Shown here one piece after another: positions 46,955-62,757 of a stretch of 64,000 nt of DNA (positions within the stretch are counted from its first letter, which is position 1; the number at the start of each line of letters is the position of its first letter). Source of the stretch: Kribbella qitaiheensis (GTDB lineage Bacteria > Actinomycetota > Actinomycetes > Propionibacteriales > Kribbellaceae). Location of the stretch: positions 7,006,001-7,070,000 of the forward strand of contig NZ_CP043661.1 in assembly GCF_014217565.1 (NCBI RefSeq). The letters are read 5' to 3'. Both the position numbers and the translations under genes were made by a program. Below the pieces are notes generated by a model that saw only the letters and a list, made by a program, of their open reading frames with translations, was not told the DNA's origin and made no database searches.

Positions 46955-47008
46955 GGGGTGATGAAGGTCAGGCTGGGGAGGGTGGGAGTGGGTGATATCG
47001 TCTGCTGG

Positions 47009-47077
47009 GTGAAGCGTTGTTATTGGCGGTTTTTTGAGTGGCCGGCTGTGGTGCCGGGCGACTCAGCCGATTGCTGA
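47009..47077 (+). CDS. Aromatic-rich leader peptide of the DAHP synthase gene
   Basis: GTG 47009 opens a 22-codon frame beginning M-K-R-C-Y-W-R-F-F-E-W-P: one Tyr, two Phe and two Trp among residues 5-11, then a stop at 47075. A TATCGT hexamer at 46996-47001 could be the -10 box, placing the start of the message at or near the GTG (leaderless). The hairpin TCAGC/GCTGA follows at 47063, and a terminator at 47106. This is the arrangement of ribosome-mediated attenuation: ribosomes stalling for lack of aromatic aminoacyl-tRNA would favour antitermination. Confidence 0.75.
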   Translation: MKRCYWRFFEWPAVVPGDSADC

Positions 47078-47105
47078 CGCCTGACCAAGTACCAGAGCCG
47101 GCTCG

Positions 47106-47134
47106 AGGCAAGGACATTCGTCCTTGCCTTTTCT
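47106..47134 (+). terminator. Attenuator terminator before the DAHP synthase gene
   Basis: Arms 47106-47115 (AGGCAAGGAC) and 47120-47129 are perfect complements around ATTC, followed by TTTCTC. It lies 29 bases after the leader-peptide stop and 68 bases before the gene. Confidence 0.82.
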
Positions 47135-47196
47135 CATTCGCAGCCGGCGCTGTCCACGGGAACGACCGCGGGATATCCGGCGGAAAGGTTCCCCAG

Positions 47197-47718
47197 ATGA
47201 ACACCCTCCCTCAGCAGGCGACCGGCGCGGTCGTGGACAGAAGGATCGAGAAGACCGTCCCGCTGATCACGCCATTGGCCCTGCACGACGAGCTGCCGAT
47301 GACCGACCAGCTGGCCGAGGCCGTGGTCGCCGGCCGGCAGGCCGTCACCGACGTGCTGAACGGCACCGACGACCGCCTGCTCGTTGTCGTCGGCCCCTGT
47401 TCGGTGCACGACGCCAAGGCAGCGCTCGAGTACGCCGAACGACTCAAGCCCATCGCCGAGCGACTCTCCGACGGTCTGCTCGTCGTGATGCGCGTGTACT
47501 TCGAGAAGCCGCGCTCCACCCTCGGCTGGAAGGGCCTGATCAACGATCCCGACCTCGACGGCTCCGGCGACGTGAACAAGGGCCTGAGGACCGCTCGCGC
47601 CCTGCTGCTCGAAGTACTGGCCAAGGGTCTCCCGGTCGGTTGTGAGTTCCTCGACCCGATCACTCCGCAGTACATCGCGGACACGGTCTCTTCTTCAAGG
47701 GAGCGGTGGGCGGCGTGA
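47197..47718 (+). pseudogene. aroG: DAHP synthase (class I, AroG type), 3' half missing
   Basis: It would condense phosphoenolpyruvate and erythrose-4-phosphate, the first shikimate-pathway step. ATG 47197 has GGAAAGG eleven bases upstream. The N-terminal half is intact: LLVVVGPCSVHDAKAALEYA, VVMRVYFEKPRSTLGWKGLI, NDPDLDGSGDVNKGL and GCEFLDPITPQYIADTVS. The family then reads WGAIGARTTESQ. Here it becomes SSRERWAA and stops, so about 170-180 residues are lost. The break coincides with the left edge of the AICE-like region. Insertion, not decay, is the best explanation, and the 3' part should lie beyond the right edge of the window. Confidence 0.8.
47682..47700. other. Predicted attachment site attL
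   Basis: DAHP synthase coding sequence is recognisable up to GACACGGTCTC and foreign after it. The crossover should lie in or next to these bases. Serine integrases need only a 2-bp shared core, so the exact position cannot be fixed without the other end. Confidence 0.5.
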
Positions 47719-47897
47719 CGCGAAGTGATGCGGTGATGATCCGGCTGGAGGCCGCGAAGCTCACGGGGCAGTCGATCCTTGCAGCTGAGCACGAGGCTCT
47801 CTACCTATGGCGCAAGGACCTGGAGGAACGCCGCGAGGTTGTTGTGTTCGATCCGGTAAAAGGCTTCTCACGACGCTCAGTCCCGGAGAATCGCTAG
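47715..47897 (+). CDS. Small protein at the left end of the element
   Basis: A frame of 60 codons starts at GTG 47715 (GTG 47706 is alternative), with AAGGGAG about 12 bases upstream, and ends at 47897. The product (AVMIRLEAAKLTGQSILAAE, EALYLWRKDLEERREVV) is charged and helical, with base composition less GC-rich than the chromosome. I recognise no family. Its position next to attL would fit a recombination directionality factor, but that is speculation. It could also be a remnant. Confidence 0.35.
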   Translation: MTRSDAVMIRLEAAKLTGQSILAAEHEALYLWRKDLEERREVVVFDPVKGFSRRSVPENR

Positions 47898-48057
47898 CTG
47901 AAATCTCCCTATGTTCCAGCCCTCAGTCGGCCGGGTGCCGATGGCTGGAACATAGAGCGATTTGGCTAGGGCCGGGTCCGTGATGATGGCGGCGATCCCG
48001 AGCCAGGCCCAGGCCCAGTGCCAGGACTGGTCGGTGGTGAGGGTGCATTTGGAGTCC

Positions 48058-48159
48058 GCCGGGACAGCCGGGACAGGTGTTGCTGGGAGGTGTCCCGGCT
48101 CCGGGCATACAAAACCGCAGGTCACAGCGCTGCCGGGACAGCAGGGACAGCCGGGACAC
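48058..48159. repeat. Cluster of GCCGGGACA-type repeats, left end of the element
   Basis: About six copies of (G)CCGGGACAG/C occur in both orientations within 100 bases (for example 48058, 48068, inverted at 48091, 48132, 48151). The same unit is clustered at 62351-62479 near the other end. They look like iterons or binding sites for an element protein. The surrounding 47898-48385 has no other feature. Confidence 0.7.
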
Positions 48160-48385
48160 CTTCCGAGTACGACAGGCGCTCTCCGCCCGCATAGAAGCCT
48201 GTCAGCTAGCTCCTGTGGATAACCGCCGTTTGGCCAGCGCGACTCGTGCCAGACTTGTAGTCAGATCCGATGAGGTCACCCTCGCGGATCCTGGCCAAGC
48301 CTGAAGGCGTGGGAGGGAGCGGCCTCGGAAGGCTGCCGGGTCGCCAGGTTTGAGGCCATTGAGAAGGTCGAGAATTTCCCCAAAC

Positions 48386-48432
48386 AAAGGCCGGCCCCCG
48401 TTCGATTCAGGCGAACGGGGGCCGGCCTTTTG
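48386..48432. terminator. 19-bp perfect hairpin before the cutA stop
   Basis: Arms 48386-48404 and 48412-48430 are exact complements around a 7-base loop, with A-runs and T-runs on the outer sides, so it can work in both directions. Confidence 0.88.
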
Positions 48433-48453
48433 AGTTGAAGGATGGCGCGGGTA

Positions 48454-48777
48454 TTAGCGGGTCTGTTCGGTGATCCAGCTGAGGTAGGCGTCTGATCCAT
48501 CGGTGATTGGAAGGAAAATCAGTTCGGGCACCTCGCCGCTGTGATGCTCATCCAGCCAGTTGACCAGGTCATCGCGCTTGTCTGTTGCGGTCTTAATCCA
48601 CAACTGCCACTCGGGTTCGGTCCAGACCTTCTCTTGCCACCGGTATACGGCTGTTATCGGCGAGGAGATTTGGACGCAGGCGGCCAAGCGAGCATCGACT
48701 AGGCCTTGAGCAAGCTTGCTCGCCTCTTCTGCCGTGGGTGTCGTCGTGAGTGCAACCACATGATCAGTTGGCGTCAT
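48454..48777 (-). CDS. cutA: CutA1-like divalent-cation tolerance protein
   Basis: The 107-residue protein has the CutA1 core: VALTTTPTAEEASKLAQGLV, RLAACVQISSPITAVYRWQ, WTEPEWQLWIKTATDK and VPELIFLPITDGSDAYLSWI. CutA forms trimers with a ferredoxin-like fold; its role in metal tolerance is debated. Here it is translationally linked to the upstream repressor gene (14-base overlap), inside the element. A housekeeping-type protein is unusual as AICE cargo. Its codon use is less GC-rich than that of the transfer operon. Confidence 0.88.
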   Translation of the reverse strand: MTPTDHVVALTTTPTAEEASKLAQGLVDARLAACVQISSPITAVYRWQEKVWTEPEWQLWIKTATDKRDDLVNWLDEHHSGEVPELIFLPITDGSDAYLSWITEQTR

Positions 48778-49483
48778 CGCTAAGTCCTTCGGTCGGGGGA
48801 ACCATCCGCAATGCGGTAGCTCCCACTGTCTTCTTCAGTTGTGCGATTTGTGCACGGGCCTCGTCCTCGCTCCGTGCTAGAACGCCCCAGCCGGACACCA
48901 CATTCCCGTCGTGGCTGAGGCCAGTCCACATTCCCAAGGCGTTAATGCCGTGGTTGTGCAGGACGAAGTAGAGCGTTCCCTTGGAATTGACCGCGCCGTC
49001 TTCGGCCGCGTACCAGCCTAATAGAACCTTGTTATCCCAAAGGCGCATTTCGCCGCGCCAGTTATATCCACCCTCGTCTAGGGTGACGCTGCCCCGGGAA
49101 TTTGTTTTGACGTGAATTAGATCGCCTTGTTGCGTCAGCATCACGGTCTGCGAGGTGATTACTTCTTGGCCATGCTGGCTCGTTTGCCAGGCCATCCACC
49201 ATTCGCCGGACAGAGAAATTCGGTGCAGAAGAGTGGCTCCGGCCAGTTCGGTAACTGACACTTTTAGCGCTTCGGCGATTGCAACACCAACCAGCAACAG
49301 CGGCTGCTGCTCGCCCGCTTCGTAGCGGCGGATCTGCCGGATGCCGACGCCGACCTTCTCTGCTAGCTCGGCTTGCGACATCCGGAGCTCAGTGCGTCGC
49401 TTTCGGATCAGCTCTCCGGTGCGGGAGATCTCAGGTGCGCCTCGTACGTCAGGTGCGTCAGGGGATTCAGGGGTGTCGTCCAT
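48764..49483 (-). CDS. XRE-family HTH regulator of the element
   Basis: Residues ~20-75 are a Cro/C1-type HTH (IRKRRTELRMSQAELAEKVG, VGIRQIRRYEAGEQQPLLL). The C-terminal ~150 residues (SGEWWMAWQTSQHGQEVITS, YNWRGEMRLWDNKVLLGWYA) form a beta-rich domain I do not know by name, seen behind HTH domains in similar regulators. ATG 49483 is chosen; the upstream extension is promoter sequence. It is divergent from the transfer operon, with palindromes between them, so it is probably the element's main repressor. Codon use is less GC-rich than its neighbours. Confidence 0.82.
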   Translation of the reverse strand: MDDTPESPDAPDVRGAPEISRTGELIRKRRTELRMSQAELAEKVGVGIRQIRRYEAGEQQPLLLVGVAIAEALKVSVTELAGATLLHRISLSGEWWMAWQTSQHGQEVITSQTVMLTQQGDLIHVKTNSRGSVTLDEGGYNWRGEMRLWDNKVLLGWYAAEDGAVNSKGTLYFVLHNHGINALGMWTGLSHDGNVVSGWGVLARSEDEARAQIAQLKKTVGATALRMVPPTEGLSDDAN

Positions 49484-49498
49484 AGCCCCCAGTCTTGC

Positions 49499-49558
49499 GG
49501 ACCAACTAGTCCTTGACAAGCGGACGCACAAGACCTCATAGTCTGTGACTAATTAGTC
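49499..49558. promoter_or_regulatory. Divergent promoter with two palindromic operators
   Basis: GGACCAACTAGTCC (49499-49512, imperfect) and GACTAATTAGTC (49547-49558, perfect 12-bp palindrome) share the half-site TAGTC. They flank TTGACA at 49513-49518 and CATAGT at 49537-49542 (18-base spacer), a plus-strand promoter for the transfer operon. The XRE protein is the likely binder. Confidence 0.7.
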
Positions 49559-49615
49559 CGGTGGAGGTCTTACTAGACCTCTTCTCCGTACATCGATGAC
49601 TGGGGTGAGCAGACG

Positions 49616-49834
49616 ATGGAGTTGGCGATCTTCGGCTTGGTGCTGTTGGGCGCGCTGGGTGTGATGTGTTGGAAGAAGTGGGCGGCGGTGTTCGTCACGG
49701 TGTTGGGCGTGATGCTCGGGACCACGATTGCGAGTAGCGGCGGGATGCTGCATCAGCCGTCGCAGGACTTCACGAACTGGGTGCGGGCCGGTATCGGCAC
49801 CCTCGGTCACAAGACGTTCGGTGGCCGGTCGTGA
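49616..49834 (+). CDS. Small membrane protein, first gene of the transfer operon
   Basis: A 72-residue protein of two membrane helices (MELAIFGLVLLGALGVMCW, WAAVFVTVLGVMLGTTIA) and a short hydrophilic tail. ATG 49616 lies about 58 bases from the operator region. Similar mini membrane proteins open AICE transfer operons; the role may be in mating-pair or spread functions. Its stop overlaps a GTG at 49831. Confidence 0.65.
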   Translation: MELAIFGLVLLGALGVMCWKKWAAVFVTVLGVMLGTTIASSGGMLHQPSQDFTNWVRAGIGTLGHKTFGGRS

Positions 49835-49861
49835 CGGCCCCGGGTGCTGTGGGGCCGGGTG

Positions 49862-50197
49862 ATGGACGCGCTGTACGCCGCGTCGGACGCCTCGCACCGG
49901 GCGCGGGGCTGGGAGGTCCGCAGGGGCACGTTCGGTGGTCGCCGGTACAGGCCGGACGTGGCCGCGTGGCTGGAGTCGCAGCGCCGGTTGGAGCGGTTCG
50001 GCTCGACGCCCGGCCCGGTCCTGGTGGTCCGCGACGAGGCTGCCGACGTGTTCGACGCGATGCGGTGGACACAGGACGACCTGACGCCGGTACTGCGGGC
50101 GGCGATTGAGCTGGGCCGCCGGGCGGACATCGTGCCTGCGTCCTGGGCCACCCTGCCGGCGGACCGTGTGATCTGTGACGGGCAGGAGGCCGCGTGA
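49862..50197 (+). CDS. AICE hypothetical protein
   Basis: A 111-residue protein (MDALYAASDASHRARGWEVR, FGGRRYRPDVAAWLESQRRL, EAADVFDAMRWTQDDLTPVL), basic then acidic, with no known family. ATG 49862 is used; GTG 49844 is in frame. The only start coupled to the previous stop (GTG 49831) is in another frame and reads TAPGAV. Since nearly every other pair in this operon is coupled, a one-base frameshift in the G/C runs at 49850-49856 may hide the true start. It ends overlapping the next gene. Confidence 0.55.
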   Translation: MDALYAASDASHRARGWEVRRGTFGGRRYRPDVAAWLESQRRLERFGSTPGPVLVVRDEAADVFDAMRWTQDDLTPVLRAAIELGRRADIVPASWATLPADRVICDGQEAA

Positions 50198-50478
50198 TGG
50201 CCGGGTTGCGGATTGACCGGCCGTGCCGGGTACGGCGGGCCGTGGCGGGCTGCTGGGAGTGGACTTGTTTGTGCTCGCCCGCGGTGTGGCCGTGTACGAG
50301 CCGGGAGGCGACGTTCGCCGCCGCGATGGAGGCGGCCGACTCGCACCTGACCGACGCTCATGGCGTCTCGGAGCCGGTGGCGCTGGCGGTCGTGATCGAT
50401 CTGGCCGCGTACCGCACCACGACCCTGGCCGCGCTGGTGGTTGCCGGTGCCCCGCGCGTCGGCGGTGAGGCGGCATGA
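50197..50478 (+). CDS. AICE hypothetical protein
   Basis: A 93-residue protein with several Cys/Trp residues in the first half (GCWEWTCLCSPAVWPC) and a helical second half (LAVVIDLAAYRTTTLAALVV). ATG 50197 overlaps the previous stop by one base; GTG 50194 is also possible. Its end overlaps the next gene by 4 bases. No family recognised. Confidence 0.5.
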   Translation: MAGLRIDRPCRVRRAVAGCWEWTCLCSPAVWPCTSREATFAAAMEAADSHLTDAHGVSEPVALAVVIDLAAYRTTTLAALVVAGAPRVGGEAA

Positions 50479-50840
50479 CCGGCAGGGCGTCGAGCGGTTT
50501 CGACCCGTTCCGGCCGCCGATGGTCGGTGCCGAGACGTGGCAGTCCGCGATAACGCTGGCGGGTTGGCGGTGTGAGTGCACCGGGCAGTGCGGCAAGGGT
50601 CATGTGAAGACCGAGGGGCGCTGCGGGACCGAGCACGGTTCCCTGCACCCGCTGGCCGTGGTCGCCGCTGACCCGGTCCTGTCCCTGCACGCTGTCGTCA
50701 CCGGCGCCGAACTGGTCGCGCTGTGCGCGGGGTGCCAGGCCGGTGCGAAGCGGGCCGCGTTCAAGGCCGCCGAACGGGCCGCCATCGCCCGCACCGACCA
50801 ACTCGACTTGTTCGACCTGACCGGAGGCGATGCCGCGTGA
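50475..50840 (+). CDS. Zinc-binding, HNH-like AICE protein
   Basis: The 121-residue protein has a Cys-rich core, WRCECTGQCGKGHVKTEGRC, then HPLAVV, then VALCAGCQAGAKRAA. The spacing is like a small HNH or zinc-ribbon domain, but I do not see a full HNH catalytic set. The C-terminal helix (KAAERAAIARTDQLDLFDLT) may be a docking tail. It starts at ATG 50475 and ends overlapping the WhiB-like gene. Function unknown. Confidence 0.6.
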   Translation: MTGRASSGFDPFRPPMVGAETWQSAITLAGWRCECTGQCGKGHVKTEGRCGTEHGSLHPLAVVAADPVLSLHAVVTGAELVALCAGCQAGAKRAAFKAAERAAIARTDQLDLFDLTGGDAA

Positions 50841-51301
50841 ACACCCCGAATCTGACCTTGACCCTGATCGGTGCGGTGCCGGTCGTGACGGTGCCGGTGC
50901 GCGACGACGAGGCGACCAAGGCTGTTGTGCGCCACGAGCTCGGGTCGCTGGACGACTTCGACCTGCCGGCCCCGGTCCTGACCCGGTGCCAGGCCAGGGC
51001 TGAGCGGGCGCTGCACGCCGCGATCCGGACCGAGTACGACGACGGCGTGACCGTGCCGTGCCTGACCGATCCGGCGACCTGGGACGCCGACCAGAACCCG
51101 ACCGATTTCCAGATCACGACCGCCGCGCGGTTGTGCCGGACCGCCTGCCCCGTGTTCGACCGGTGCGCCGCGTTCGTGGCGACCGAGCCGCCGGTGTGCG
51201 GAATCGTTGCCGGGCGCTTCATCCCGCACCCCATCGACATGGTCGAGCACCGCGCCGCGAGCCACGCCCGCAAGGACCAGGTCGCCGCCCGCGCGGCCTG
51301 A
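50837..51301 (+). CDS. WhiB-like protein carried by the element
   Basis: GTG 50837 overlaps the previous stop (GTGA). Of 154 residues, the middle part has a WhiB-type pattern: VPCLTDPATWDAD, then LCRTACPVFDRCAAFVATEP and GIVAGRF. The Cys spacing is C...C-x3-C-x5-C, against x2 in standard WhiB, and the WGG turn is replaced by IVAG. So it is a divergent member. Mobile elements and phages of actinomycetes often carry WhiB proteins that alter host transcription. The cluster should be tested, not assumed. Confidence 0.75.
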   Translation: MNTPNLTLTLIGAVPVVTVPVRDDEATKAVVRHELGSLDDFDLPAPVLTRCQARAERALHAAIRTEYDDGVTVPCLTDPATWDADQNPTDFQITTAARLCRTACPVFDRCAAFVATEPPVCGIVAGRFIPHPIDMVEHRAASHARKDQVAARAA

Positions 51302-51331
51302 CTTCACAACTCATCGAAGGAGAAACACGTC

Positions 51332-51514
51332 ATGGCGAAAGACAAGTCCGCAACTGGCAAGTGGCGCAAGGACGTTGACGAGTTCATCGCCGGCGCCTAC
51401 GCGAAGGCGAACAAGCCCGGCGCCAAGTTCACCAAGGCCGACGTGAAGGCGCTGCACGCGCGATTCCACCAGAGCATCGACAACGTCGAGTCCGCGACCA
51501 AACACAAGCGCTAG
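51332..51514 (+). CDS. Small basic AICE protein
   Basis: A 60-residue, Lys-rich, helical protein (MAKDKSATGKWRKDVDEFIA, FTKADVKALHARFHQSID). ATG 51332 has GAAGGAG ten bases upstream, one of the few independent ribosome sites in the operon. No family recognised. Confidence 0.6.
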   Translation: MAKDKSATGKWRKDVDEFIAGAYAKANKPGAKFTKADVKALHARFHQSIDNVESATKHKR

Positions 51515-51557
51515 AACCCGCACTTGCCCGACTGCCTTGTCTGACTGGAGACCGCTG

Positions 51558-51797
51558 ATGAACCGCAAGCGCTACAACACCACCGCACCGCGTGACCTGG
51601 TGCTGCGCGTTGCCGAGGGCACCGACCGCCGATGCGAGGCGTGCGCGGTGCGCCGGACCCGGCGGCGGATGGACGTGGCCGGCGTGGTGTTCGCGATTTG
51701 TGAGTCCTGCGCCCCGGTGCCGGTGATGGCGATTCTCCCGGCCCGCGACGGCGCCAACCAGACCTGTGATCGTACCGACTTCAAGGACGCTGCCTGA
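51558..51797 (+). CDS. Small zinc-ribbon AICE protein
   Basis: A 79-residue protein with two CxxC knuckles: RCEACAVRRTRRRM and FAICESCAPVPVM, a likely zinc ribbon. ATG 51558 has CTGGAG upstream; ATG 51797 of the next gene overlaps its stop (TGATG). It may bind nucleic acid or protein. Function unknown. Confidence 0.6.
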   Translation: MNRKRYNTTAPRDLVLRVAEGTDRRCEACAVRRTRRRMDVAGVVFAICESCAPVPVMAILPARDGANQTCDRTDFKDAA

Positions 51798-52321
51798 TGA
51801 CGCATCCCTTCCCCGCCAAGCCCAAGCTGATTACCAAGACCAGCCCGCTCGATCTGGCGTGGCGGGCACACGACGCCGCCGCCGCGTCGATCGGCAAGGC
51901 AGACACGAAGGCCGGATTCGTTGCCACGCTGGACACCGCGGTCCTGGCCGGAGTGCTGGCAATCGCCGACAAGTCCTCCTCGCCCAAGGCATTTCAAGTG
52001 TTGACGGGCTTGGGTGCTGGGTGTCTCGTGCTCGCGGTCCTATTCGCTGTGACCGTGGTGTTGCCGATCCTGCGGGTTCGGCAGACTCGGCGGCACGCGG
52101 CCGGGAACTGGCTGTACTTCGGTGCCGTGCGCCACCACAGCGCCACTGAGTTGGCCGACCGGCTGACCGGTGAGGACCCGCTGCGCGGGGTGTGTGCGCA
52201 GACCGTGACATTAGCCCGGCTGGCCTGGCTTAAGCACCGCCTGTTGCAGGCGTCGCTGCTGGCCACTGTCGCTGGAATCGCCCTGTTTCTGACTGCCCTG
52301 ATCGCTGGAGGTACCCGGTGA
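51797..52321 (+). CDS. PycTM-like (Pycsar effector family, DUF5706-type) membrane protein
   Basis: The 174-residue protein begins with the family hallmark: ADTKAGFVATLDTAVLAGVL is close to the A/KADTKAxxxLxxNxAxL segment of the PycTM domain, with a membrane helix there. A second helix is FQVLTGLGAGCLVLAVLFAV, then a soluble part and a final helix (LLATVAGIALFLTALIAG). In the Pycsar anti-phage system such proteins are opened by cCMP or cUMP made by a paired cyclase. No cyclase is encoded nearby. It is coupled to both neighbours. Its role here could be defence, or a transfer function sharing the fold. Confidence 0.7.
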   Translation: MTHPFPAKPKLITKTSPLDLAWRAHDAAAASIGKADTKAGFVATLDTAVLAGVLAIADKSSSPKAFQVLTGLGAGCLVLAVLFAVTVVLPILRVRQTRRHAAGNWLYFGAVRHHSATELADRLTGEDPLRGVCAQTVTLARLAWLKHRLLQASLLATVAGIALFLTALIAGGTR

Positions 52322-52692
52322 ACGACGAAAAGCTTGTCCAGTACGCCGATGACGCCTATGAGGCGATCCGTGCCCTCAACCACGGCACCTTCCGCGCGCT
52401 CCCGGCGCCGCTGGCTTACAGCGTGCTCGGCAATCTCCAGGCGATGGGGTTCGGCCTGGCCCAGTTGACCGGGCAGTTGTCCGGTGGGCTGACGGAGTCG
52501 CTGACCGCCTACGACGTGTACGACAACAACCGGGACCCGAAAGTGAGTGTCGCGATGGCTGCCGAAGCGCTGCGACTGGCCGCCGCCTCCGCGCAAGGTA
52601 CGGCCGAACTGCTCGCCGCCGCGCAGTTGGCGATCAACGCGCAGGGCTACAACGTCCCCGACACCGACACCGACCAGGAGGACCAGGGATGA
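52318..52692 (+). CDS. AICE hypothetical helical protein
   Basis: GTG 52318 overlaps the PycTM-like stop (GTGA). The 124-residue product is helical and soluble (AYEAIRALNHGTFRALPAPL, SVAMAAEALRLAAASAQGT), with an acidic tail. Proteins of this look are frequent in AICEs upstream of the Spd and TraB genes; the role is unknown. The stop overlaps the next start. Confidence 0.6.
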   Translation: MNDEKLVQYADDAYEAIRALNHGTFRALPAPLAYSVLGNLQAMGFGLAQLTGQLSGGLTESLTAYDVYDNNRDPKVSVAMAAEALRLAAASAQGTAELLAAAQLAINAQGYNVPDTDTDQEDQG

Positions 52693-53663
52693 GCACGGGA
52701 CTGGTTGCCGCTGGCAACGCGAGGACCGCGCGGGTGGACAAGCTGCGCGAGTCGGCGGCGAGCGCGTCGCAGGTGCGGGCGCTGTCCACGCACCCCGACG
52801 TGGTGGCGCTGCGGGTGGAGTCGGTCCGTACGCAGGTGGACCGGTGCATGTGGGTGGGGATCGTGCTGGGTCTGGCGTTCACGATGGTCAACGTTCAGGC
52901 GTTCGCCGCTCAGGGCGGGGTGCTGTGGTCGCTGCCTTGGTTCGCCGCGTGGCTGCTGGACCCGATGGTGTCGCTGGTGTTGATCGCGGTCTTGCGGGCC
53001 GAGCAGGTCACTGCCCGGTACCAGGTCAGCGACCACACCCGTTGGATCAGCCGCACGAAGCGGTTCGCGTTCGCCGCGACCTATGCGATGAACACTTGGT
53101 CGTCGTTCCTGCACAGGGATGTTGCGGGGATGGTGTTGCACTCGGTGCCGCCGTTGCTGGTGTTCTGCGCTGCCGAAACTGCCCCGGTGCTACGCGACCG
53201 GCTGACAGAAGCGGTGCTGCGCGCCGAGCGGACCGCCGCCGAAGCCAACCCGGCCGCACCGTCACTCACCGAGCCGGCCACAGCACCCGCCCCGACCCCG
53301 GTACTCGAGTCCGAGCACGCGGGCGACGCCGCACCCGACACGACCGCACCGGCCCGGAAGCGGACCGCCCGCAAGGCGCCCGCCCGCCCGGCAGGCAAGC
53401 GCAGCGGTAAGGCCACCGGCAAGGACAAGGCACGCGCGCACTGGGATGCCGAAATCGTGGCTGGCCGTGAGCCGTCCGGCGGGGAGCTGGCCCGGGTGGC
53501 AGGTGTTGACCCGTCGCTGGGCCGGCGCTGGCTGCGCGACTGGAAGACCGAGATCCCGACCGACCAGGACGCTACCGGCATCACGGCGGCCGCGACCACC
53601 GAAACCCCGCAGACCGACAGCACGGACGACCTGAGCCGCGAGATGGAAGAGGAGGCCGCCTGA
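52689..53663 (+). CDS. Membrane protein with basic linker and C-terminal HTH (Spd/DUF2637-like)
   Basis: The 324-residue protein has four membrane helices in the first 165 residues (MWVGIVLGLAFTMVNVQAFA, SLPWFAAWLLDPMVSLVLIA, FAFAATYAMNTWSS, VLHSVPPLLVFCAA). A Pro/Ala region and a Lys/Arg/Ala stretch (RKRTARKAPARPAGKRSG) follow, then a DNA-binding-like end (GGELARVAGVDPSLGRRWLR). This layout is typical of AICE proteins next to the translocase gene and linked to intramycelial spread. It could tether element DNA to the membrane. Both ends overlap neighbouring genes. Confidence 0.72.
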   Translation: MSTGLVAAGNARTARVDKLRESAASASQVRALSTHPDVVALRVESVRTQVDRCMWVGIVLGLAFTMVNVQAFAAQGGVLWSLPWFAAWLLDPMVSLVLIAVLRAEQVTARYQVSDHTRWISRTKRFAFAATYAMNTWSSFLHRDVAGMVLHSVPPLLVFCAAETAPVLRDRLTEAVLRAERTAAEANPAAPSLTEPATAPAPTPVLESEHAGDAAPDTTAPARKRTARKAPARPAGKRSGKATGKDKARAHWDAEIVAGREPSGGELARVAGVDPSLGRRWLRDWKTEIPTDQDATGITAAATTETPQTDSTDDLSREMEEEAA

Positions 53664-55978
53664 TGCGTTTCATCGGCCGCAAGACCAACGACGAGAACGA
53701 CGACCGCGACGACGTGCAGGACGTGCCGGGTGAGCAGATGGGCGAGGTGGTCCCGCTGCACCGCGACACCGCCCCGATTCAGGACACGAACGACGACGAG
53801 GCCGGTGAGCAGACCGGGCCGCGTGTGCAGGACGTGATTGCGCGGGAGATCCCGGCGGGGGAGTCGGCGCCACCGGCTGACTTCGAGGTGGTGGACGGCG
53901 ACGAGGATGCGGACGAGGTCGCTCCGGTGGTGATGCGGGTAGATCCGTTGCCGGGGTCGGTTCCGGGTCTGTTTCCGTGGGACCGTACCGACGAGCGTCG
54001 CGCGCCGATCCCGTTGTGGGTCAGCGATGCCGCGACCCGTAGGGCCGCGATCACCTGGGCGGGCGAGATGGCCAAGCACAAGGCGAAGTTCCACGCGGTG
54101 CGCACGCCGCTGTATGCCGCACGGGTGGCGGTGCGGGTACCGCGCGGCGGTGTCCGGGTGCTGCGTGACTACACCCGCTGGGTGAGCGACGCCGAGACCC
54201 GGCCGCTGCGTAACGAGGCGGTCCGCAAGGCTGACGCGGTCGAGCACATGAAGCTGGCGCAGAAGACCGCCGAGCGGCAGAAGGCGCGGCTGGCGATCTC
54301 GGGTGCACTGTCGGTCCCGGTCCTGGCGGGACTGGCTGTGGTGGTGTTCGCCGCTCCGGTCCCGGTCGCGGTCCTGCTCGCGATCGGTGCTGTGTCCTGG
54401 CTCGGGGTCCGGGGCGGGACCGAGGACAAGCCGTTGATCGGTCGCGCCGTCGTGACCGGGAAGGTCCCGGAACTGACCTCCGACATGATCATCCGGGCGC
54501 TGGGGTCGCTGAACAACTCGCTGCTCAACGCTGCGGTCAAGTCCGGTCGCGGGGTCACCTTCCCTAACCCGATCCACCGTGACGGGCCGGGCTGGCGGGC
54601 CGACATCGATCTGCCGTACGGCGTGACCGCGAACGACATCATGGACAAGCGCAAGGCGCTCGCATCCGCGCTGCGCCGGCCGCTGGGCTGTGTGTGGCCC
54701 GAGCCGGACGCCGACCAGCACGAGGGCCGCCTGATCTTGTGGGTGGGCGACAAGGACATGGCCAAGTCGCCCGCGACGCCGTGGCCGCTGGCCAAGGCGG
54801 GCAAGGTCAGCCTGTTCGAGCGGTTCGCGTTCGCGACCGACCAGCGCGGCCGGATGGTCACGCTGCTGCTGATGTTCGAGAACATGCTGATCGGCGCGAT
54901 GCCCCGGTTCGGTAAGACGTTCGCGCTGCGGGTGGTCCTGCTGGCTGCCGCGCTGGACCCGACCGTTGAGATGTACGTCTACGAGCTCAAGGGCACCGGC
55001 GACCTGGACAGCCTGGAGCAGGTCGCGCACCGGTTCCACTCCGGTCCCGGTGACGATCCCGCCTTGAACGCGACGATGGCGGGACTGCGCGAGGTGTATG
55101 CGGAACTGGAGACCCGCGCGCACGCGATCAAGCGGCTCCCGGTGGACCTGCGCAAGGAGAACAAGGTCACGCCCGAGATCGCGGCGAAGCGGTCCCTGGG
55201 GCTGTACCCGGTCCTGGTCGCGATCGATGAGTGCCAGGAGTTGTTCTCCGACAAGACCCACGGTGCCGAGGCGGAGGATCTGTGCCTGGGGATCATCAAG
55301 CGCGGTCCCGCTCTGGGGATCATGTTGGTGCTGGCCACCCAGCGCCCCGACAGCGACTCGCTGCCCACCGGGGTATCGGCCAATGCCGGGATCCGGCTGT
55401 GCCTGAAGGTGATGGGCCAGACCGAGAACGACATGGTGCTGGGCACGTCCAGCTACAAGAACGGGCTGCGCGCGACCGAGTTCACCATCAAGGACAAGGG
55501 CATCGGCATCCTCAAGGGTCACGCCGACGCCCACCAGACCGTGCGGTCCTACTACATCGATGGCCCCGCTGCGGAGCAGATCGTCAAGCGGGCAAGGGCT
55601 TTGCGTGAGACCGCCGGGACGATCACCGGCCACGCGGCAGGCGAGGCCACCGCGGTCAACACCGGCCCGCGGTTCTCGCTGCTGGACGACATCACCGCCG
55701 TGATGGCGCCGGGGGAGGACAAGGTCCACTCCGAAACGATCTGCGACCGGCTCGAAGACCTGCGCCCCGACTTCTACAAGGGCTGGGACGCCACCGGCCT
55801 GGCCAACGCGCTCAAGCCGCTGGGTCTCAAGACCGACCAGGTTTGGGCCACCGGCACCAACGGCAAGCCCGCCAACCGGCGCGGCATCACCCGCACCGAC
55901 CTCGACAAGGCCCGTGCCGCCAACACCAAGACGAACACGAAGCGTGACGGCGGCGAGGGAGGTGAGGTGACCGCCTGA
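53663..55978 (+). CDS. TraB/TraSA-type FtsK-like conjugative DNA translocase
   Basis: The 771-residue protein moves double-stranded element DNA from donor to recipient. After an acidic N-terminus come two membrane helices near residues 210-250 (LAVVVFAAPVPVAVLLAIGA). The motor domain follows: Walker A GAMPRFGKTFALR near residue 415, Walker B VLVAIDECQELF near 520, and VLATQRPDSDSLPTG. The last ~90 residues (ICDRLEDLRPDFYKGWD, LANALKPLGLKTDQVW) form a winged helix like the DNA-reading gamma domain of FtsK/TraB. ATG 53663 overlaps the previous stop. A CTAG-rich region follows it, as expected for a clt site. Confidence 0.92.
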   Translation: MRFIGRKTNDENDDRDDVQDVPGEQMGEVVPLHRDTAPIQDTNDDEAGEQTGPRVQDVIAREIPAGESAPPADFEVVDGDEDADEVAPVVMRVDPLPGSVPGLFPWDRTDERRAPIPLWVSDAATRRAAITWAGEMAKHKAKFHAVRTPLYAARVAVRVPRGGVRVLRDYTRWVSDAETRPLRNEAVRKADAVEHMKLAQKTAERQKARLAISGALSVPVLAGLAVVVFAAPVPVAVLLAIGAVSWLGVRGGTEDKPLIGRAVVTGKVPELTSDMIIRALGSLNNSLLNAAVKSGRGVTFPNPIHRDGPGWRADIDLPYGVTANDIMDKRKALASALRRPLGCVWPEPDADQHEGRLILWVGDKDMAKSPATPWPLAKAGKVSLFERFAFATDQRGRMVTLLLMFENMLIGAMPRFGKTFALRVVLLAAALDPTVEMYVYELKGTGDLDSLEQVAHRFHSGPGDDPALNATMAGLREVYAELETRAHAIKRLPVDLRKENKVTPEIAAKRSLGLYPVLVAIDECQELFSDKTHGAEAEDLCLGIIKRGPALGIMLVLATQRPDSDSLPTGVSANAGIRLCLKVMGQTENDMVLGTSSYKNGLRATEFTIKDKGIGILKGHADAHQTVRSYYIDGPAAEQIVKRARALRETAGTITGHAAGEATAVNTGPRFSLLDDITAVMAPGEDKVHSETICDRLEDLRPDFYKGWDATGLANALKPLGLKTDQVWATGTNGKPANRRGITRTDLDKARAANTKTNTKRDGGEGGEVTA

Positions 55979-56009
55979 CCCCGGCGAAACCTCCACAACT
56001 TCATCTCGC

Positions 56010-56212
56010 GGCTAGCGCCGCACCGGCCCTAGCGGGGTCAGGAAATCCCGGAGATTCCTAGCACCTGGCCCCGCTAGACCTAGCACCACCGCTAGCAACC
56101 ACAACCAGACCGTGACCTGCGAAGACACCAGGTCTAACGGGTCAGCCGACTCATGCCGAAAACGCCCGGAACAGGCCCTAGGAGCGCCCTTGACCCCCCG
56201 CACAGCCGCTAG
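56010..56212. repeat. CTAG-rich region after traB, candidate clt transfer locus
   Basis: Eight CTAG tetramers occur at 56012, 56029, 56058, 56074, 56080, 56092, 56178 and 56209, mostly as (C/G)CTAGC(G/A)CC; fewer than one would be expected by rough base composition. Within it, 56029-56042 and 56064-56077 form a 14-bp inverted repeat (13 of 14). TraB proteins bind short repeats near their gene. Confidence 0.6.
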
Positions 56213-56261
56213 TGCTAACTCGACCCCGCAAACCCCCGCAGACAGCCACAGGAGCCCGCTC

Positions 56262-57323
56262 ATGCGCACCCTCGCCACCACCCTCAAGACTCTCCTTAAC
56301 CGCCGCGCTGCTCACTGTCCGCAGTCGAGTGTCGGGATCGGGCTGCGGCTGCGGTCGCTGCCGAGTCCTCAGCCGCTGCGCAGCATCACCGCCGTTCCGC
56401 TGGGGATCGATGAGACCGGGCAGCCGCTCGACGTGCCGCGCGGCATGTCGGTGCTGATCGCCGGTGACCCCCGCACCCGCGTCACGACCGCGCTGCGCAC
56501 TCTCGCCCTGGGTTACGCCCGGTTTCCCGGCACCCGGTTGCACGTCTACGAGGCCGACCTGCTCGGTGATCTGTCGGCCCTGCGTGGCCTGGCGCACCGC
56601 TACATCGACACCACCCACGGCAGCTTCACCATCCCTGCCGCGACCGACGATCTCAACCACCTGGCCGACCTGATCGAGCGGCGCGCTCAGCACCTGGCCG
56701 ACCTGAACGCCGACCTGTTCGCCGCCGAAGAGTTTGTCCGCCGCGTCACCGGCAAACCGGTCCCTCGGCTGACCAGCTTGGACGACATGCGCGCCGTCGA
56801 GGAACGTGTCTGGGCCGCCACCGGCATCCACCCCGACCGCATCGACCCCGAGACCGCAGACCTGCACCCGCACGTCGTAGTCATCGGTCACGCGATCCGC
56901 TGGGCGCTAAGCGACCGCGACGCCGAAGCGTTCACCACCGCCCTGACCCGCGTCACCGACCAGGGCGCCGGCCTGGGCGTGACCGTGCTGCTGGGCACCG
57001 ATTCGTCCTACCTGTCCTACTTCCCCGCCGATCTGGCCCCGGCGTTTCGCTATCGGATCTCGACCGGCCTGACCAAGCCCGTCCACGCCGACCAGGTGCT
57101 CGGTGCACTGGCTCGACAGTCCGGGATCGACACCACCCCCGACCGGCTACGCCGCCCCGGCCAGGGCTGGATCGCCGACCTGACCAGCGAACCGGTCTAC
57201 CAGCCCTTCCAGGTCTACGACGCCAACCCGCACGCCTTCCGCGCCGACTGCCTGCGCCTGACTCGCTCCCGCGCCCGCTCAGGCTGGCTGACCGGCGACG
57301 CCGCCACCCGGAGCGGCAAGTGA
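56262..57323 (+). CDS. FtsK-like paralogue with a degenerate Walker A motif
   Basis: ATG 56262 has AGGAG seven bases upstream; longer in-frame sequence covers the repeat region and is not used. The 353-residue protein follows the FtsK/TraB ATPase plan: MSVLIAGDPRTRVTTALRTL at the P-loop, DLHPHVVVIGHAIRWAL near the Walker B position, then GLGVTVLLGTDSSYLSYFPA and SGWLTGD. The P-loop lacks the GK(S/T) core (RVTT instead), so it probably does not hydrolyse ATP. It may pair with TraB as a non-catalytic subunit. It overlaps the next gene by one base. Confidence 0.72.
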   Translation: MRTLATTLKTLLNRRAAHCPQSSVGIGLRLRSLPSPQPLRSITAVPLGIDETGQPLDVPRGMSVLIAGDPRTRVTTALRTLALGYARFPGTRLHVYEADLLGDLSALRGLAHRYIDTTHGSFTIPAATDDLNHLADLIERRAQHLADLNADLFAAEEFVRRVTGKPVPRLTSLDDMRAVEERVWAATGIHPDRIDPETADLHPHVVVIGHAIRWALSDRDAEAFTTALTRVTDQGAGLGVTVLLGTDSSYLSYFPADLAPAFRYRISTGLTKPVHADQVLGALARQSGIDTTPDRLRRPGQGWIADLTSEPVYQPFQVYDANPHAFRADCLRLTRSRARSGWLTGDAATRSGK

Positions 57324-57628
57324 TGACGGCCGTCCCGGTCCTCGTGCCGGAACTCACGTCGGGGGCGGTGTCGCTGGTCGCGCTGATCACCGCAGGCGGC
57401 ACGTTCTTGCTGATCGTGGTCGGCGCCGCGATCAGCGGCCTGTACCTGCTCGTGTGCCGGATCTGGCCGTTCCGAGCCTGCAAACGCTGCAAGGGACTCG
57501 GCAGGCTGCACGCCCCGAGCGGCAAAGCCTGGCGCGACTGCCCCCGCTGCAAAGGCACCGGACGCAAACTCCGCATCGGCCGGCGCCTGTGGAACCACGC
57601 CGAACGCGCCAAACGCAACGCCATCTGA
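57323..57628 (+). CDS. Membrane protein with DnaJ-like zinc knuckles
   Basis: The 101-residue protein has one N-terminal membrane helix (LVALITAGGTFLLIVVGAAI) and a cytosolic tail with two CxxCxG repeats (ACKRCKGLGRL and DCPRCKGTGRK), the zinc pattern of DnaJ. ATG 57323 overlaps the previous stop (TGATG). It could hold a partner at the membrane. Function unknown. Confidence 0.65.
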   Translation: MTAVPVLVPELTSGAVSLVALITAGGTFLLIVVGAAISGLYLLVCRIWPFRACKRCKGLGRLHAPSGKAWRDCPRCKGTGRKLRIGRRLWNHAERAKRNAI

Positions 57629-57657
57629 CACCAACCCAGCAAGGAGAAGCCACCCTC

Positions 57658-57822
57658 ATGGCCACGAAGACACCCAAGAAGAAGCTCACCCCGCGCGAGG
57701 AGTACAACGCCGCTCTGGAAGACCTGAACCGCTACTCCGACAACAACGAAACCACCGCCGCACTCAAGGCCCGTCAGCGGTTCGAGAACGCCGACCGCCG
57801 CGTCCGGTGGTGGCACCGATGA
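57658..57822 (+). CDS. Small AICE protein
   Basis: A 54-residue charged protein ([38 protein letters not shown]). ATG 57658 has AAGGAGAAG 10-12 bases upstream. It overlaps the next gene by 4 bases. No family recognised. Confidence 0.55.
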
Positions 57823-58136
57823 TCTACCCCGGCACCCGCACCGCCTACGCCGGTCACCGGCCGGTGTTGCTGATGGCAGAGGTGCACCAGGCACGATCAG
57901 CCGCCCACGACAAACACGGCGACAACAGCATCGAGGCTCTCGCCGCCGACTCCCCGCGCTGGCTACCTGTCCTGGTCGAGGAAGTCGGCGAGATCGCCAA
58001 CACCCTCACCTACGACGGACCCGGCGACAACACCCGCGCCGAACTCATCGATGCCATCGCCGTACTCACGGCCTGGCTCGACGCCATCGACACCGCCCGC
58101 AAGCCCCGCACCCTCGCAACGACCGGAAGGAACTGA
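57819..58136 (+). CDS. MazG-like helical protein
   Basis: The 105-residue protein contains [20 protein letters not shown] and [17 protein letters not shown], which resemble the EExxE and (D/E)xxD metal helices of MazG-like NTP pyrophosphatases. The first helix has EEVGE, so a metal site is possible. ATG 57819 overlaps the previous stop. It lies directly before ssb, in the replication block, where a nucleotide-cleaning role would make sense. The match is by motif only. Confidence 0.55.
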
Positions 58137-58141
58137 TTGTC

Positions 58142-58642
58142 ATGAGCAACGAAACGGTGATCACCATCGTGGGCAACCTGACCGATGACCCCGAACTGCG
58201 CTTCACCACCTCCGGTGCCGCCTTTGCCCGGTTCTCGATCGCCTCGACCCCGCGCCGCTTCGACAAGGCATCGGGGGAGTACGTGGACGGCGACACTCTC
58301 TTCCTGCGGGCCACCGCCTGGCGTCAGGTCGCAGAGAACGCCGCCGAATCCCTCCAGCGCGGCATGCGGGTCATCGCGACCGGGCGCCTGCGCCAATCGA
58401 CCTGGGAGACGACCGAAGGTGACAAGCGGTCGTCGATCGACCTGGAAGTTGACGAGATCGGCCCGTCGCTGACGTTCGCCACCGCCAAGGTCACCAAGGC
58501 CGCCCGCGCGAACAAGACCAGCGGCAACCCCGCCGACCCGTTCACCAACGCCGGACGCGAACCGGCCACCGCAGGTGCCGGTCTTGGCGCTGGGGGCCGC
58601 GACCCGTGGACCTCGCAGGGCATGGACGAACCGCCCTTCTAG
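58142..58642 (+). CDS. ssb: Single-stranded DNA-binding protein of the element
   Basis: The 166-residue protein has the SSB OB-fold ([50 protein letters not shown]) and the acidic C-terminal tip DEPPF that binds partner proteins. It coats single strands during element replication. ATG 58142 follows GGAAGGAAC. The prim-pol gene follows after 98 bases. Confidence 0.93.
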
Positions 58643-58740
58643 CCCACCCCTCTGAGCCCGGTGGCCGGGCCGAGTCACGTCCCGTCCCGGCCACCGGAGA
58701 CCAACCGCCGACCGTAGCTGACCCCGACCTTGGAGGAATC

Positions 58741-59640
58741 GTGATCCCTAACCTGCGTACAGCGCTCGACGCGGCCCGGCGCGGCTGGCCGGTGTTTCCA
58801 CTGCGCCCCGGCTCGAAGGTGCCCGCGATGCCCGAATGGGAGACCAACGCCACGACCGACACCGACCGGATCGCCGGCTACTGGTTGCGCCACCGCGCCC
58901 ACGGCGTCGCGATCGCCTGCGGACCGGCCCGCCTGGTGGTTGTCGACCTGGACCAGCCCAAGCCCGGCAAGGCGACCCCTGCCGAGTGGGACCGGCCCGG
59001 CATCACCGATGGGTGCGACGTGTTCGCCGACCTGTGCGCGACCGCTGGGCAGCCGTTCCCGACCGGCACCTACTCTGTCCAGACCGGCCGGGGCGGGTTC
59101 CATCTGTACTTCACCACCCCGGCTGGGGTGGAGCTCCGCAACACCGGCGGTGGGCGCGGCCGGGGACTTGGGTGGCTGGTCGATACCCGCGCGGCCGGCG
59201 GCTACGTCGTCGCGGCCGGATCGGTTGTCGAGGGCAACCGCTACGACCTGGTCCACGATGTGCCCGCGGCGCCATTGCCGACCTGGCTGGCCGAACGCCT
59301 CACCGCCCCGCTGGTGGCACCGGCTCCGGTGCTGCCGGTGCAGTTGCGTACCGCGCGCCGTTCGGCTTACCTCGACCGGGCCGTGACCGACGAGTGCCGC
59401 CACGTCGTCACCGCCGCATCAGAAGCGCACAACGCCGCCCTGTTCATGGCCGCGCAGAACCTGGGCCGCCTGGTCGCCGGAGGCGCCCTGCCCGAAGCCG
59501 ACGTGTACGCCGCACTGCTCGACGCCGAACGGCGCCTCGCCGCGACCTGCACCGAGCCACACACCGAAACCCAAGCCCACAAGACGATCACGTCCGGCCT
59601 GCGCGCCGGTGCGAAGCGCCCCCGGAAGGTAGCTGCCTGA
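58741..59640 (+). CDS. Bifunctional DNA primase/polymerase (prim-pol) replication protein
   Basis: GTG 58741 has TGGAGG seven bases upstream. The 299 residues hold the prim-pol domain: AARRGWPVFPLRPGSKVPAM, ARLVVVDLDQ with the metal DxD, and VQTGRGGFHLYFTTP with the conserved His, followed by GGYVVAAGS. The C-terminal helical part (NAALFMAAQNLGRLVAGGAL) is the linker seen before the helicase in phage prim-pol proteins. The helicase-like ATPase is encoded separately, two genes on. Overlaps the next gene by one base. Confidence 0.88.
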   Translation: MIPNLRTALDAARRGWPVFPLRPGSKVPAMPEWETNATTDTDRIAGYWLRHRAHGVAIACGPARLVVVDLDQPKPGKATPAEWDRPGITDGCDVFADLCATAGQPFPTGTYSVQTGRGGFHLYFTTPAGVELRNTGGGRGRGLGWLVDTRAAGGYVVAAGSVVEGNRYDLVHDVPAAPLPTWLAERLTAPLVAPAPVLPVQLRTARRSAYLDRAVTDECRHVVTAASEAHNAALFMAAQNLGRLVAGGALPEADVYAALLDAERRLAATCTEPHTETQAHKTITSGLRAGAKRPRKVAA

Positions 59641-60428
59641 TGGGCGTGGAATTCTTCCTCGGCACGCACGAACCGGGCTGGCTGAACTGGTCACCGGTAC
59701 CGCTGTTCGTGTCCGACCGGCGGCTGCGCCGCTACCGGCGCCTGCCTCGCGCGGCCACTCGTTGGGCGCTGGACTCGGGCGGCTTCACCGAACTCGACAC
59801 CCACGGCAACTGGGACCACGGGCCGACCCCCGTCGCCTATGTGGCCGCGGTCCGCCGCTACCGCGATGAGATCGGGCAGTTGGCATGGGCCGCCCCGCAA
59901 GACTGGATGTGCGAACCGTGGGTCACCACCAAAACCGGATTGACGATCGCCGAGCACCAACGTCGCACCGTGGGCAACTACCTGACCCTCCGAGCGCTGG
60001 CACCTGACCTGCCGTTCGTGCCCGTCGTGCAGGGCTGGCAGGTGCGCGACTACCTGACCTGCGTGGAGATGTACGCCGCCGCCGGCGTTGACCTCACCAC
60101 CGCGCAGGTGGTTGGACTGGGGTCGGTCTGCCGGCGCCAAGCCACCAGCGAAGCCGCCGACATCGTGGATGCCCTGCACTCAGTCGGAGTCGGCAGACTC
60201 CACGGATTCGGCATCAAAATCCTCGGGCTTCGTCGCTACGGCCAACGCCTCGCCTCAGCCGACTCCATGGCCTGGTCCATCGCCGCCCGCTACGAACTCC
60301 CACTGCCCGGATGCACCCACGCCAGTTGTGCGAACTGCGCCCGGTACGCGCTCGCTTGGCGTGCCAACGTCGTCGCCTCCATCCCCACCCACGAGCCCCT
60401 ATCCCTCTTCGATCGAGAGGCCGCCTGA
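59640..60428 (+). CDS. Queuine tRNA-ribosyltransferase-like (DpdA-type) protein
   Basis: The 262-residue protein has a TIM-barrel look, with FFLGTHEPGWL, RWALDSGGFTELDTHG (the active-site Asp-type loop), WAAPQDWMCEPW, PFVPVVQGW and VGLGSVCRR. This combination is typical of the DpdA-like relatives of tRNA-guanine transglycosylase found in actinophages and mobile elements. DpdA enzymes put 7-deazaguanine bases into DNA. Toward the end CTHASCANCARYA supplies clustered Cys/His that could bind zinc. There are no preQ0 synthesis genes here, so the base would have to come from the host. Coupled to both neighbours. Confidence 0.7.
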   Translation: MGVEFFLGTHEPGWLNWSPVPLFVSDRRLRRYRRLPRAATRWALDSGGFTELDTHGNWDHGPTPVAYVAAVRRYRDEIGQLAWAAPQDWMCEPWVTTKTGLTIAEHQRRTVGNYLTLRALAPDLPFVPVVQGWQVRDYLTCVEMYAAAGVDLTTAQVVGLGSVCRRQATSEAADIVDALHSVGVGRLHGFGIKILGLRRYGQRLASADSMAWSIAARYELPLPGCTHASCANCARYALAWRANVVASIPTHEPLSLFDREAA

Positions 60429-61352
60429 TGGCCACCGCTCCCGCACTGACTGCCCTGTCGCTGGGGGCTGGAGTGCAGTCCACCGCACTGCTGCTGCTCG
60501 CCGCCGAAGGAGTGTTGCCGCGCCCGGACGTGGCGATCTTTGCCGACACCGGATGGGAGCCGGCCGCGGTCTACGCGCAACTCGACCGGCTCGCCGCCAT
60601 CGCCAAGGCGGCCGGAATCGAGCTCCACCGCGTCAGCAAAGGCAACCTGCGCGACGACGCCACCGACCCCGCCCACCGCTACGCCTCCGTGCCGTACTTC
60701 ATCCGCAACCCCGACGGCACCAACGGCATCGGGCCGGCGCCAATGCACGAGCGAATACAAGCTCGCGCCGATTACCCGCAAGGTCCGCGAACTGCTCGGA
60801 GCCACCCCACCGCAGTTTCGGCGTGTGCCAGCCGGGCGAGTGTGTGAGCAGTGGATCGGGTTCTCCACCGACGAGATCGGCCGCGTATCCGACCGCCAAA
60901 AGGTCCGGTACCTGACGAACCGATATCCACTGCTGGAATTGGGGATGTCGCGCAAAGACTGCCAGCGATGGCTGGCCGGCCGCGGCTGGGGCGACACGGT
61001 CAAGTCAGCCTGTATCGGCTGCCCGTTCCACGGCAACCGAGCCTGGCGAGACCTGCGCGACAACCAGCCCAACGAATGGGCCGACGCCGTCGCGTTCGAC
61101 GCAGCGATCCGACACGGAGGAGCCCGCGGCTCCGGCCTGCGCGGCACCGCCTACCTGCACGCCTCCCGGGTGCCACTCGACCAGGCACCGATCGACCGAA
61201 TCACCCGCACTGAACGCAAAGACGACCAGGTGGACCTGTTCGACGTACTCGCCGAACAAGGCGACCCGGACGGATGCAGCCCCTACGGCTGCCGCTCCGG
61301 CACCCCCGGCTCGCTGCCCACCGAATCGACCTCGTGGAGGGAATCGGCGTGA
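60428..61352 (+). pseudogene. PP-loop (PAPS reductase/DndC-like) protein, one-base frameshift
   Basis: ATG 60428 overlaps the previous stop. The first ~100 residues carry a PP-loop (LSLGAGVQSTALLLLAAEG) and IFADTGWEP. The frame is lost near 60734 in GGGCCGG. With one C removed it continues as GIGRRQCTSEYKLAPITRKV, giving about 307 residues. The rest has SACIGCPFHGNRAWRDL with paired cysteines and the end GCSPYGCRSG. These proteins activate a substrate with ATP, and some act in sulfur transfer to DNA or tRNA. Position beside the DpdA-like gene suggests one modification pathway. Sequencing error is likely. Confidence 0.75.
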
Positions 61353-62374: not shown

Positions 62375-62479
62375 CCTGTCCCGGCTGTCCCGGCTGTCCC
62401 GGCAACCCTCTGACCTGCGCATTTACCCCGATCGAGCCGGGACACCCCCGCCAAGACACCTGTCCCGGCTGTCCCGGCA
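62351..62479. repeat. Cluster of GCCGGGACA-type repeats, right side of the element
   Basis: About seven copies in both orientations: GCCGGGACAG at 62351, three tandem TGTCCCGGC from 62378, inverted GCCGGGACAC near 62436, and two more from 62461. It overlaps the last codons of the RepA-like gene. A replication origin with iterons next to its own replication genes is one reading. The same unit is at 48058-48159. Confidence 0.72.
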
Positions 62480-62513
62480 AACCCCCGAACCGACCACCCA
62501 GACGCACGGAGGC

Positions 62514-62696: not shown

Positions 62697-62704
62697 CAAC
62701 TAAG

Positions 62705-62746: not shown

Positions 62747-62757
62747 TCCGCGTGTAC

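Follow-up and report, generated by a model that had tools for sequence, protein, structure and literature searches.

A GTG-started frame of 22 codons, encoding MKRCYWRFFEWPAVVPGDSADC, lies directly upstream of the class I DAHP synthase gene (aroG/aroF) of Kribbella qitaiheensis, and we consider it probable that the gene is under ribosome-mediated leader-peptide control of the same type as that of the Corynebacterium AroR leader. Judged from its sequence and conservation, the Tyr-Trp-x-Phe-Phe-x-Trp leader is very probably a genuine sensor that would raise DAHP synthase when aromatic amino acids are scarce. All aromatic amino acids, and many natural products of actinobacteria, derive from the pathway that DAHP synthase opens.

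The analysis covered a stretch of 64,000 nucleotides (the window; positions 7,006,001 to 7,070,000 of contig NZ_CP043661.1), and its features, including the RNA strands A, D and F, are listed in Table 1. Sequence reading and comparison established the frame, its conservation, the promoter spacing, the bias toward wobble codons, the terminator, the 8-nt spacing and the A:D helix. The change from A:D to D:F pairing is a prediction from folding, and we infer the direction of control, the amino acids that count and the way in which stalling would defeat the terminator.

Table 1. Features of the leader region, the DAHP synthase gene and the element inserted in it (positions in the window)
Feature	Position	Strand	Evidence or remark
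Extended -10 promoter box TGATATCGT	46993..47001	+	Ends 7 nt 5' of GTG; spacing kept in the genus and in 91/107 actinobacterial leaders
Leader-peptide frame MKRCYWRFFEWPAVVPGDSADC, predicted leaderless; Y5 W6 F8 F9 W11 (TAT, TGG, TTT, TTT, TGG)	47009..47077	+	Sequence; covariance-model match in 38/38 genus genomes
Strand A GGCCGGCU, in the W11-P12-A13 codons	47040..47047	+	Pairs with D or locally; A:D covariation outside the genus
Hairpin around the stop codon, GGGCGACUCAGC / GCUGACGCC	47056..47081	+	Folding, genus alignment
Strand D AGCCGGCU, immediately 5' of the terminator	47096..47103	+	Pairs with A, or with F when A is masked
Intrinsic terminator GAGGCAAGGAC-ATTC-GTCCTTGCCTT and tail TTCTC	47105..47135	+	Folding; compensatory G-C to C-G change in 5 genomes
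Strand F CAGCCGGCGCTG, which can pair with D, 3' of the terminator	47141..47152	+	Folding, comparison
CCGGCGG leading into the aroG Shine-Dalgarno GGAAAGG	47177..47188	+	Strongly kept in the genus
Class I DAHP synthase gene (aroG/aroF), 5' portion, interrupted	47197..47691	+	PF00793
Integrated element (FtsK-like, Prim-Pol, AAA_25, serine recombinase)	47680..64000, on to ~64242 past the window		Splits aroG at the GACACGGTC/GACACTGTC core

The leader frame and its promoter

The leader frame opens with GTG AAG CGT TGT TAT TGG CGG TTT TTT GAG TGG and ends with TGA. The original prediction had described a short GTG frame with Y, W, F, F and W among residues 5 to 11, placed before a DAHP synthase gene, and both parts were borne out: the five residues were read at these positions, and the gene that starts at 47197 is a class I DAHP synthase with the PF00793 domain. 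Five aromatic residues within seven were found in this frame alone among the 662 short frames of the window. An alternative start farther upstream in frame, at 46982 or 46988, was discarded, as it precedes the -10 box and the upstream part was without conservation.

The sequence TATCGT at 46996-47001 is followed by a gap of 7 nt and then by the GTG. Of 107 actinobacterial leaders, 91 had exactly 7 nt between the TAnnnT box and the start codon and 106 had 6-8 nt, counts that are somewhat inflated because frames were chosen partly by the box where several starts were possible; the same spacing was seen at 0.4% of random upstream positions. Such spacing is what a transcript beginning at the start codon would show, and a start at or adjoining the GTG is predicted, consistent with the earlier impression that the leader looks leaderless.

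Conservation and codon choice in the genus

All 38 genomes searched in the genus have a class I DAHP synthase gene, which is whole in the 37 relatives and there spans about 370-424 codons. When the leader region was modelled by covariance, 38/38 genus genomes matched, always before DAHP synthase, and none of 159 other genomes of the order did. Alignment of the region upstream of aroG in relatives, which had been proposed as a check, showed that the frame and its aromatic codons are kept: each of the 30 upstream regions read carried the leader, and in these the codons for Tyr5, Trp6 and Phe were invariant in all but L020, and Trp11 was changed to Gln in L014. In L020 (1303-1430), one T is lost in the leader Phe codons and the frame shifts to VKRSYWRFLSGRPW..., reflecting either decay or a sequencing error.

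In the leaders of the genus, Phe was encoded by TTT 58 times and never by TTC, and Tyr by TAT 29 times and never by TAC. The counts for the adjoining DAHP synthase genes were 0 TTT to 125 TTC and 1 TAT to 144 TAC. The 77 other actinobacterial leaders had 79 TTT to 19 TTC and 91 TAT to 8 TAC, and the DAHP synthase genes beside them 2 TTT to 391 TTC and 6 TAT to 264 TAC. The rarest synonymous codon for Phe and Tyr is used almost solely at the places where the ribosome would be expected to wait. The choice of wobble codons may either raise sensitivity through wobble decoding or serve RNA structure.

RNA strands and terminator

The small hairpins and terminator that had been expected after the frame were recovered by folding. 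The terminator stem (47105-47130) has 11 pairs with a short U-rich tail, the stop codon lies within a hairpin, and the leader region forms further hairpins (z of -6.4; 0 of 200 shuffles equally stable). Five genomes carry a two-sided change in the terminator stem, from AAGGC/GCCTT to AAGCC/GGCTT.

Strands A and D form a helix that could be followed outside the genus, where 12 distinct A/D pairs were found and 110 of 120 cells were paired, versus 85% in controls that swapped A and D between leaders. Covariation took the form of C-G/U-A at pair 6, G-C/U-A/A-U/C-G at pair 9 and U-A/G-C at pair 10. Since the core pairs never vary within the genus, where the helix is neither supported nor contradicted, the support for A:D pairing comes from other families only. 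The aromatic cluster closed with Phe in 77/77 leaders outside the genus. Among the 56 of these with a GGCUC-type A, the strand began 8 nt downstream of the first base of this Phe codon in 55. In most leaders, D ends a few nucleotides 5' of the terminator.

Folding predicted D to pair with a free A at a probability of 0.9-1.0 in most leaders (0.91 in the window) and, once A is masked, with F at 0.6-0.9 in most leaders (0.87 in the window). The D:F pairing was moderately above shuffled controls, at 0.84 versus 0.55 in the genus and 0.60 versus 0.32 in the others. The terminator itself had a predicted probability of at least 0.995 in all ribosome-stall models of the window ending at the terminator, and of about 0.9 or more in nearly all families with A either free or masked. 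Because the terminator stays formed in both states, the folding model yields no swap between terminator and antiterminator, and no antiterminator overlapping the terminator was found by ribosome-stall folding, nascent-transcript folding or covariation.

Leaders outside the genus

Relatives came to light when the DNA before class I DAHP synthase genes was read, not through the genus covariance model. In a class-wide sample outside the genus, a leader preceded the gene at 41 of 66 loci, and the other 25 had none by the criteria used; 19 of 20 further loci of one family also had a leader. The aromatic motif was YWRF in Mycobacterium, Mycolicibacterium, Williamsia and Dietzia, WYWRF in Isoptericola and Puerhibacterium, WYAYF in Arthrobacter and Microbacterium, YFWF in Rhodococcus, Nocardia and Amycolatopsis, and YWF in Pseudonocardia. 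YPYF was another motif among these leaders, and WRFYF occurred in two small genomes (L211, MWRFYFSKAPEAETS; L212, MRNWRFYFEWGSGR), together with an A strand, a D strand and a terminator.

In leaders of the YFWF type (L088, L090, L138, L170, L192 and several of L215-L230), a D:F hairpin without a U-tract comes straight after the leader, and the strand GGGYCGGYC, close to the Shine-Dalgarno, seems able to pair with F. From its sequence, this type is perhaps a purely translational version.

Short frames with aromatic clusters were also seen before class I DAHP synthase genes of proteobacteria (Bradyrhizobium, Mesorhizobium, Dyella and Alcaligenaceae; loci L143, L150, L151, L161, L173, L177, L178, L180, L190, L196 and L203). 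As many as seven aromatic residues stand in one cluster (SYFWYF and YFYFYFF are examples), and a TATA-like box is often close 5' of the ATG. A terminator follows in L143 and L178, the proteobacterial frames printed in full.

The element that splits the DAHP synthase gene

The statement that an inserted element leaves the leader in front of a broken gene was confirmed. A serine-recombinase element of ~16.5 kb (47680-64242; genome 7053680-7070242) sits within the DAHP synthase gene at GACACNGTC and cuts aroG after about codon 165. The left junction, GACACGGTC, is at 47680-47688, and the gene resumes at GACACTGTC (window-equivalent ~64242), with its 3' part at genome 7070228-7070788. The element carries an FtsK-like protein, a Prim-Pol and an AAA_25 ATPase, with the serine recombinase at its right end, a gene content expected of an integrative element of actinomycetes. 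At the element site, aroG was uninterrupted in 37/37 related genomes.

In this strain, the leader would control a truncated gene unless the element excises, and a reversible splitting of the gene by the element is possible. A class II DAHP synthase is encoded elsewhere in the genome (7328316) and would let aromatic synthesis continue; as far as read, the 300 bases upstream of it had no comparable leader. Within the element, a frame on the minus strand at 48454-48777 resembles, by sequence reading, a CutA-type divalent-ion tolerance protein.

Proposed mechanism and alternatives

In the mechanism that we propose, the transcript would begin at or adjoining the GTG, so that the ribosome would load on a leaderless frame. 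When aromatic tRNAs are charged, the ribosome would pass the aromatic codons and strand A, once freed, would pair locally or with D before the terminator, which would then stop most transcripts. When Phe is short (in the genus also Trp at codon 11), the ribosome would stall with its leading edge over A; D would re-pair with F, 3' of the terminator, in read-through transcripts, and aroG would be expressed. Stalling may defeat the terminator through loss of the stacked A:D helix and/or through control after read-through, for example at the aroG translation start. In the folding models, the ribosome would thus have a strand pairing to switch, yet the usual antiterminator is missing.

A ribosome is taken, by the textbook value, to cover 12-15 nt from the first base of the A-site codon. 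With this geometry, a stall at F8, F9 or W11 would cover A at least partly and a stall at Y5 or W6 would not, which favors Phe and Trp11 as the sensed residues. The original prediction had all three aromatic amino acids sensed by one peptide. This part found no support in that form, as a ribosome stalled at Y5 or W6 would stop short of strand A. That a stall at F8 or F9 would cover A and a stall at Y5 would not fits the behavior of Corynebacterium glutamicum aroF, which is reported to be derepressed by limitation of Phe, not Tyr (Neshat 2014 as summarised in PMC11802643). Speaking against the mechanism are the persistence of the terminator in the folding models, the invariance of the A:D core within the genus, the modest excess of D:F over shuffled controls, the L020 deletion in the Phe codons and the 25/66 class-wide loci without a leader by the criteria used.

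It could be argued that the leader is a chance frame in a GC-rich upstream region, joined to an ordinary terminator of an upstream transcript. That short frames are common in any GC-rich DNA is all that speaks for this; the leader is kept in 38/38 genomes with invariant Tyr, Trp6 and Phe codons, a frame with five aromatic residues in seven occurs once among 662, and because of the conservation we regard the idea as already refuted and its chance of being right as negligible. Nor is the leader likely to act through its peptide product, be it a small peptide with a function of its own or one that arrests the ribosome from within the tunnel, in place of sensing tRNA charging. Such a role would suit a peptide sequence that is well kept within the genus. 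However, the aromatic cluster alone is kept outside the genus, where the remainder tracks the RNA strands (GGCUCCGGGUGG to APGG), and the preference for TTT and TAT acts at the level of the codon, not of the peptide; we therefore consider this role quite improbable.

Two further explanations concern the step at which the leader acts. The original prediction spoke of an attenuator; in one of the classical trp type, a stalled ribosome would permit an antiterminator that overlaps the 5' arm of the terminator. All the outward parts exist (leader frame, regulatory codons, competing hairpins and terminator), and before the 3' arm exists, the 5' arm was predicted to be paired at 0.26-0.56 with stalls at F8, F9 or W11 versus 0.05-0.12 with stalls at Y5 or W6. 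However, the 5' arm was paired at 0.36-0.67 without any ribosome, so the effect in the nascent fold is not specific to stalling. Furthermore, the 5' arm has no conserved or covarying upstream partner, the compensatory change from AAGGC to AAGCC has no upstream counterpart, and the terminator kept its probability of at least 0.995 in every stalled state, which makes the classical swap doubtful. Alternatively, the regulated step could be the aroG translation start (or RNA stability), with the terminator as a fixed basal attenuator and a switch composed of A:D, D:F and pairing near the ribosome-binding site. The D:F helix sits 3' of the terminator and hence would act only in transcripts already past it; the D:F hairpin of Rhodococcus, Nocardia and Amycolatopsis lacks a U-tract, so that no terminator is evident; masking A lowered the predicted pairing of the ribosome-binding site from 0.74-0.80 to 0.19-0.34 in 4 of 7 Arthrobacter-type (WYAYF) leaders; and AroR was termed a translational regulator in one paper (PMC7356990). 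On the other hand, pairing of the ribosome-binding site in the window was predicted at 0.64 in both states, and the C. glutamicum work is described as transcription attenuation (PMC11802643). We regard control at this later step as a realistic possibility, though less likely than not.

Ribosome-mediated leader-peptide control may also be put into a class-wide form, which we offer tentatively and think rather unlikely to be right as a whole. Stalling would free D from A, the D:F helix would close around the transcribed terminator, and control would fall later than the terminator, on ribosome access to aroG or on the fate of the RNA, tuned by the near-exclusive use of UUU and UAU and by a last Phe codon 8 nt before the switch strand.

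Comparison with known systems

The original prediction had set the leader apart from single-amino-acid leaders, but this is not new, since AroR, the leader of C. glutamicum aroF, already contains the mixed motif Phe-Tyr-Phe (Mentz 2013, PMC4046766). AroR resembles the leader in the window in being short, in grouping its aromatic codons and in lying directly before a DAHP synthase gene, and ribosome-mediated attenuation with Phe limitation as the signal, as described for AroR (PMC11802643), is proposed here by analogy. The peptides differ (FYF versus YWRFFEW). Leaders L211 and L212 share FYF with AroR, a likeness judged from the reported AroR peptide. In the published actinobacterial literature examined, C. 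glutamicum is the sole record of a DAHP synthase leader.

The ilvB, trpL and leuA leaders of Actinobacteria are leaderless, including trpL of Streptomyces lividans (PMC8079986), and the -10 box lies 7 nt from the start in 91/107 of the leaders compared here. The reannotation of S. lividans lists eight leaders, none of them for DAHP synthase (PMC8079986), and in the actinobacterial survey of Seliverstov 2005 no conserved element was detected for operons of phenylalanine or tyrosine (PMC1262725). Rfam 15 gave no relevant match for the leader region at either curated (gathering) or permissive thresholds.

The trp attenuators of Corynebacterium and Streptomyces likewise consist of a leader frame and then a terminator (Seliverstov 2005, PMC1262725). 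However, their antiterminator and terminator share complementary triples, and no such overlap was found in the aroG leader. The LEU element of actinobacterial leuA (PMC1262725) also has a strand at the regulatory codons that pairs far downstream, with control proposed near the Shine-Dalgarno, but it differs in having leucine codons, a pseudoknot and no terminator between the strands. In the uORFC-13-1 motif of Acholeplasma aroF (PMC8632094), a Phe-containing leader frame and a terminator likewise precede the gene for DAHP synthase; the motif is from another phylum and has a ribosome-binding site, and no common sequence or structure was noted.

A leader with common parts across many families provides a test system for how one peptide weighs several amino acids, and could also be used to test whether the choice of wobble-only codons sets sensitivity. 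No description of how widely the leader occurs, of its inverted codon use or of the A:D helix was found in the mostly non-subscription literature covered. Mixed-aromatic leaders are a known kind through AroR, which the WRFYF relatives resemble, and what is new is the breadth of the leader, its codon inversion, the 8-nt spacing of A and the covarying A:D pairing.
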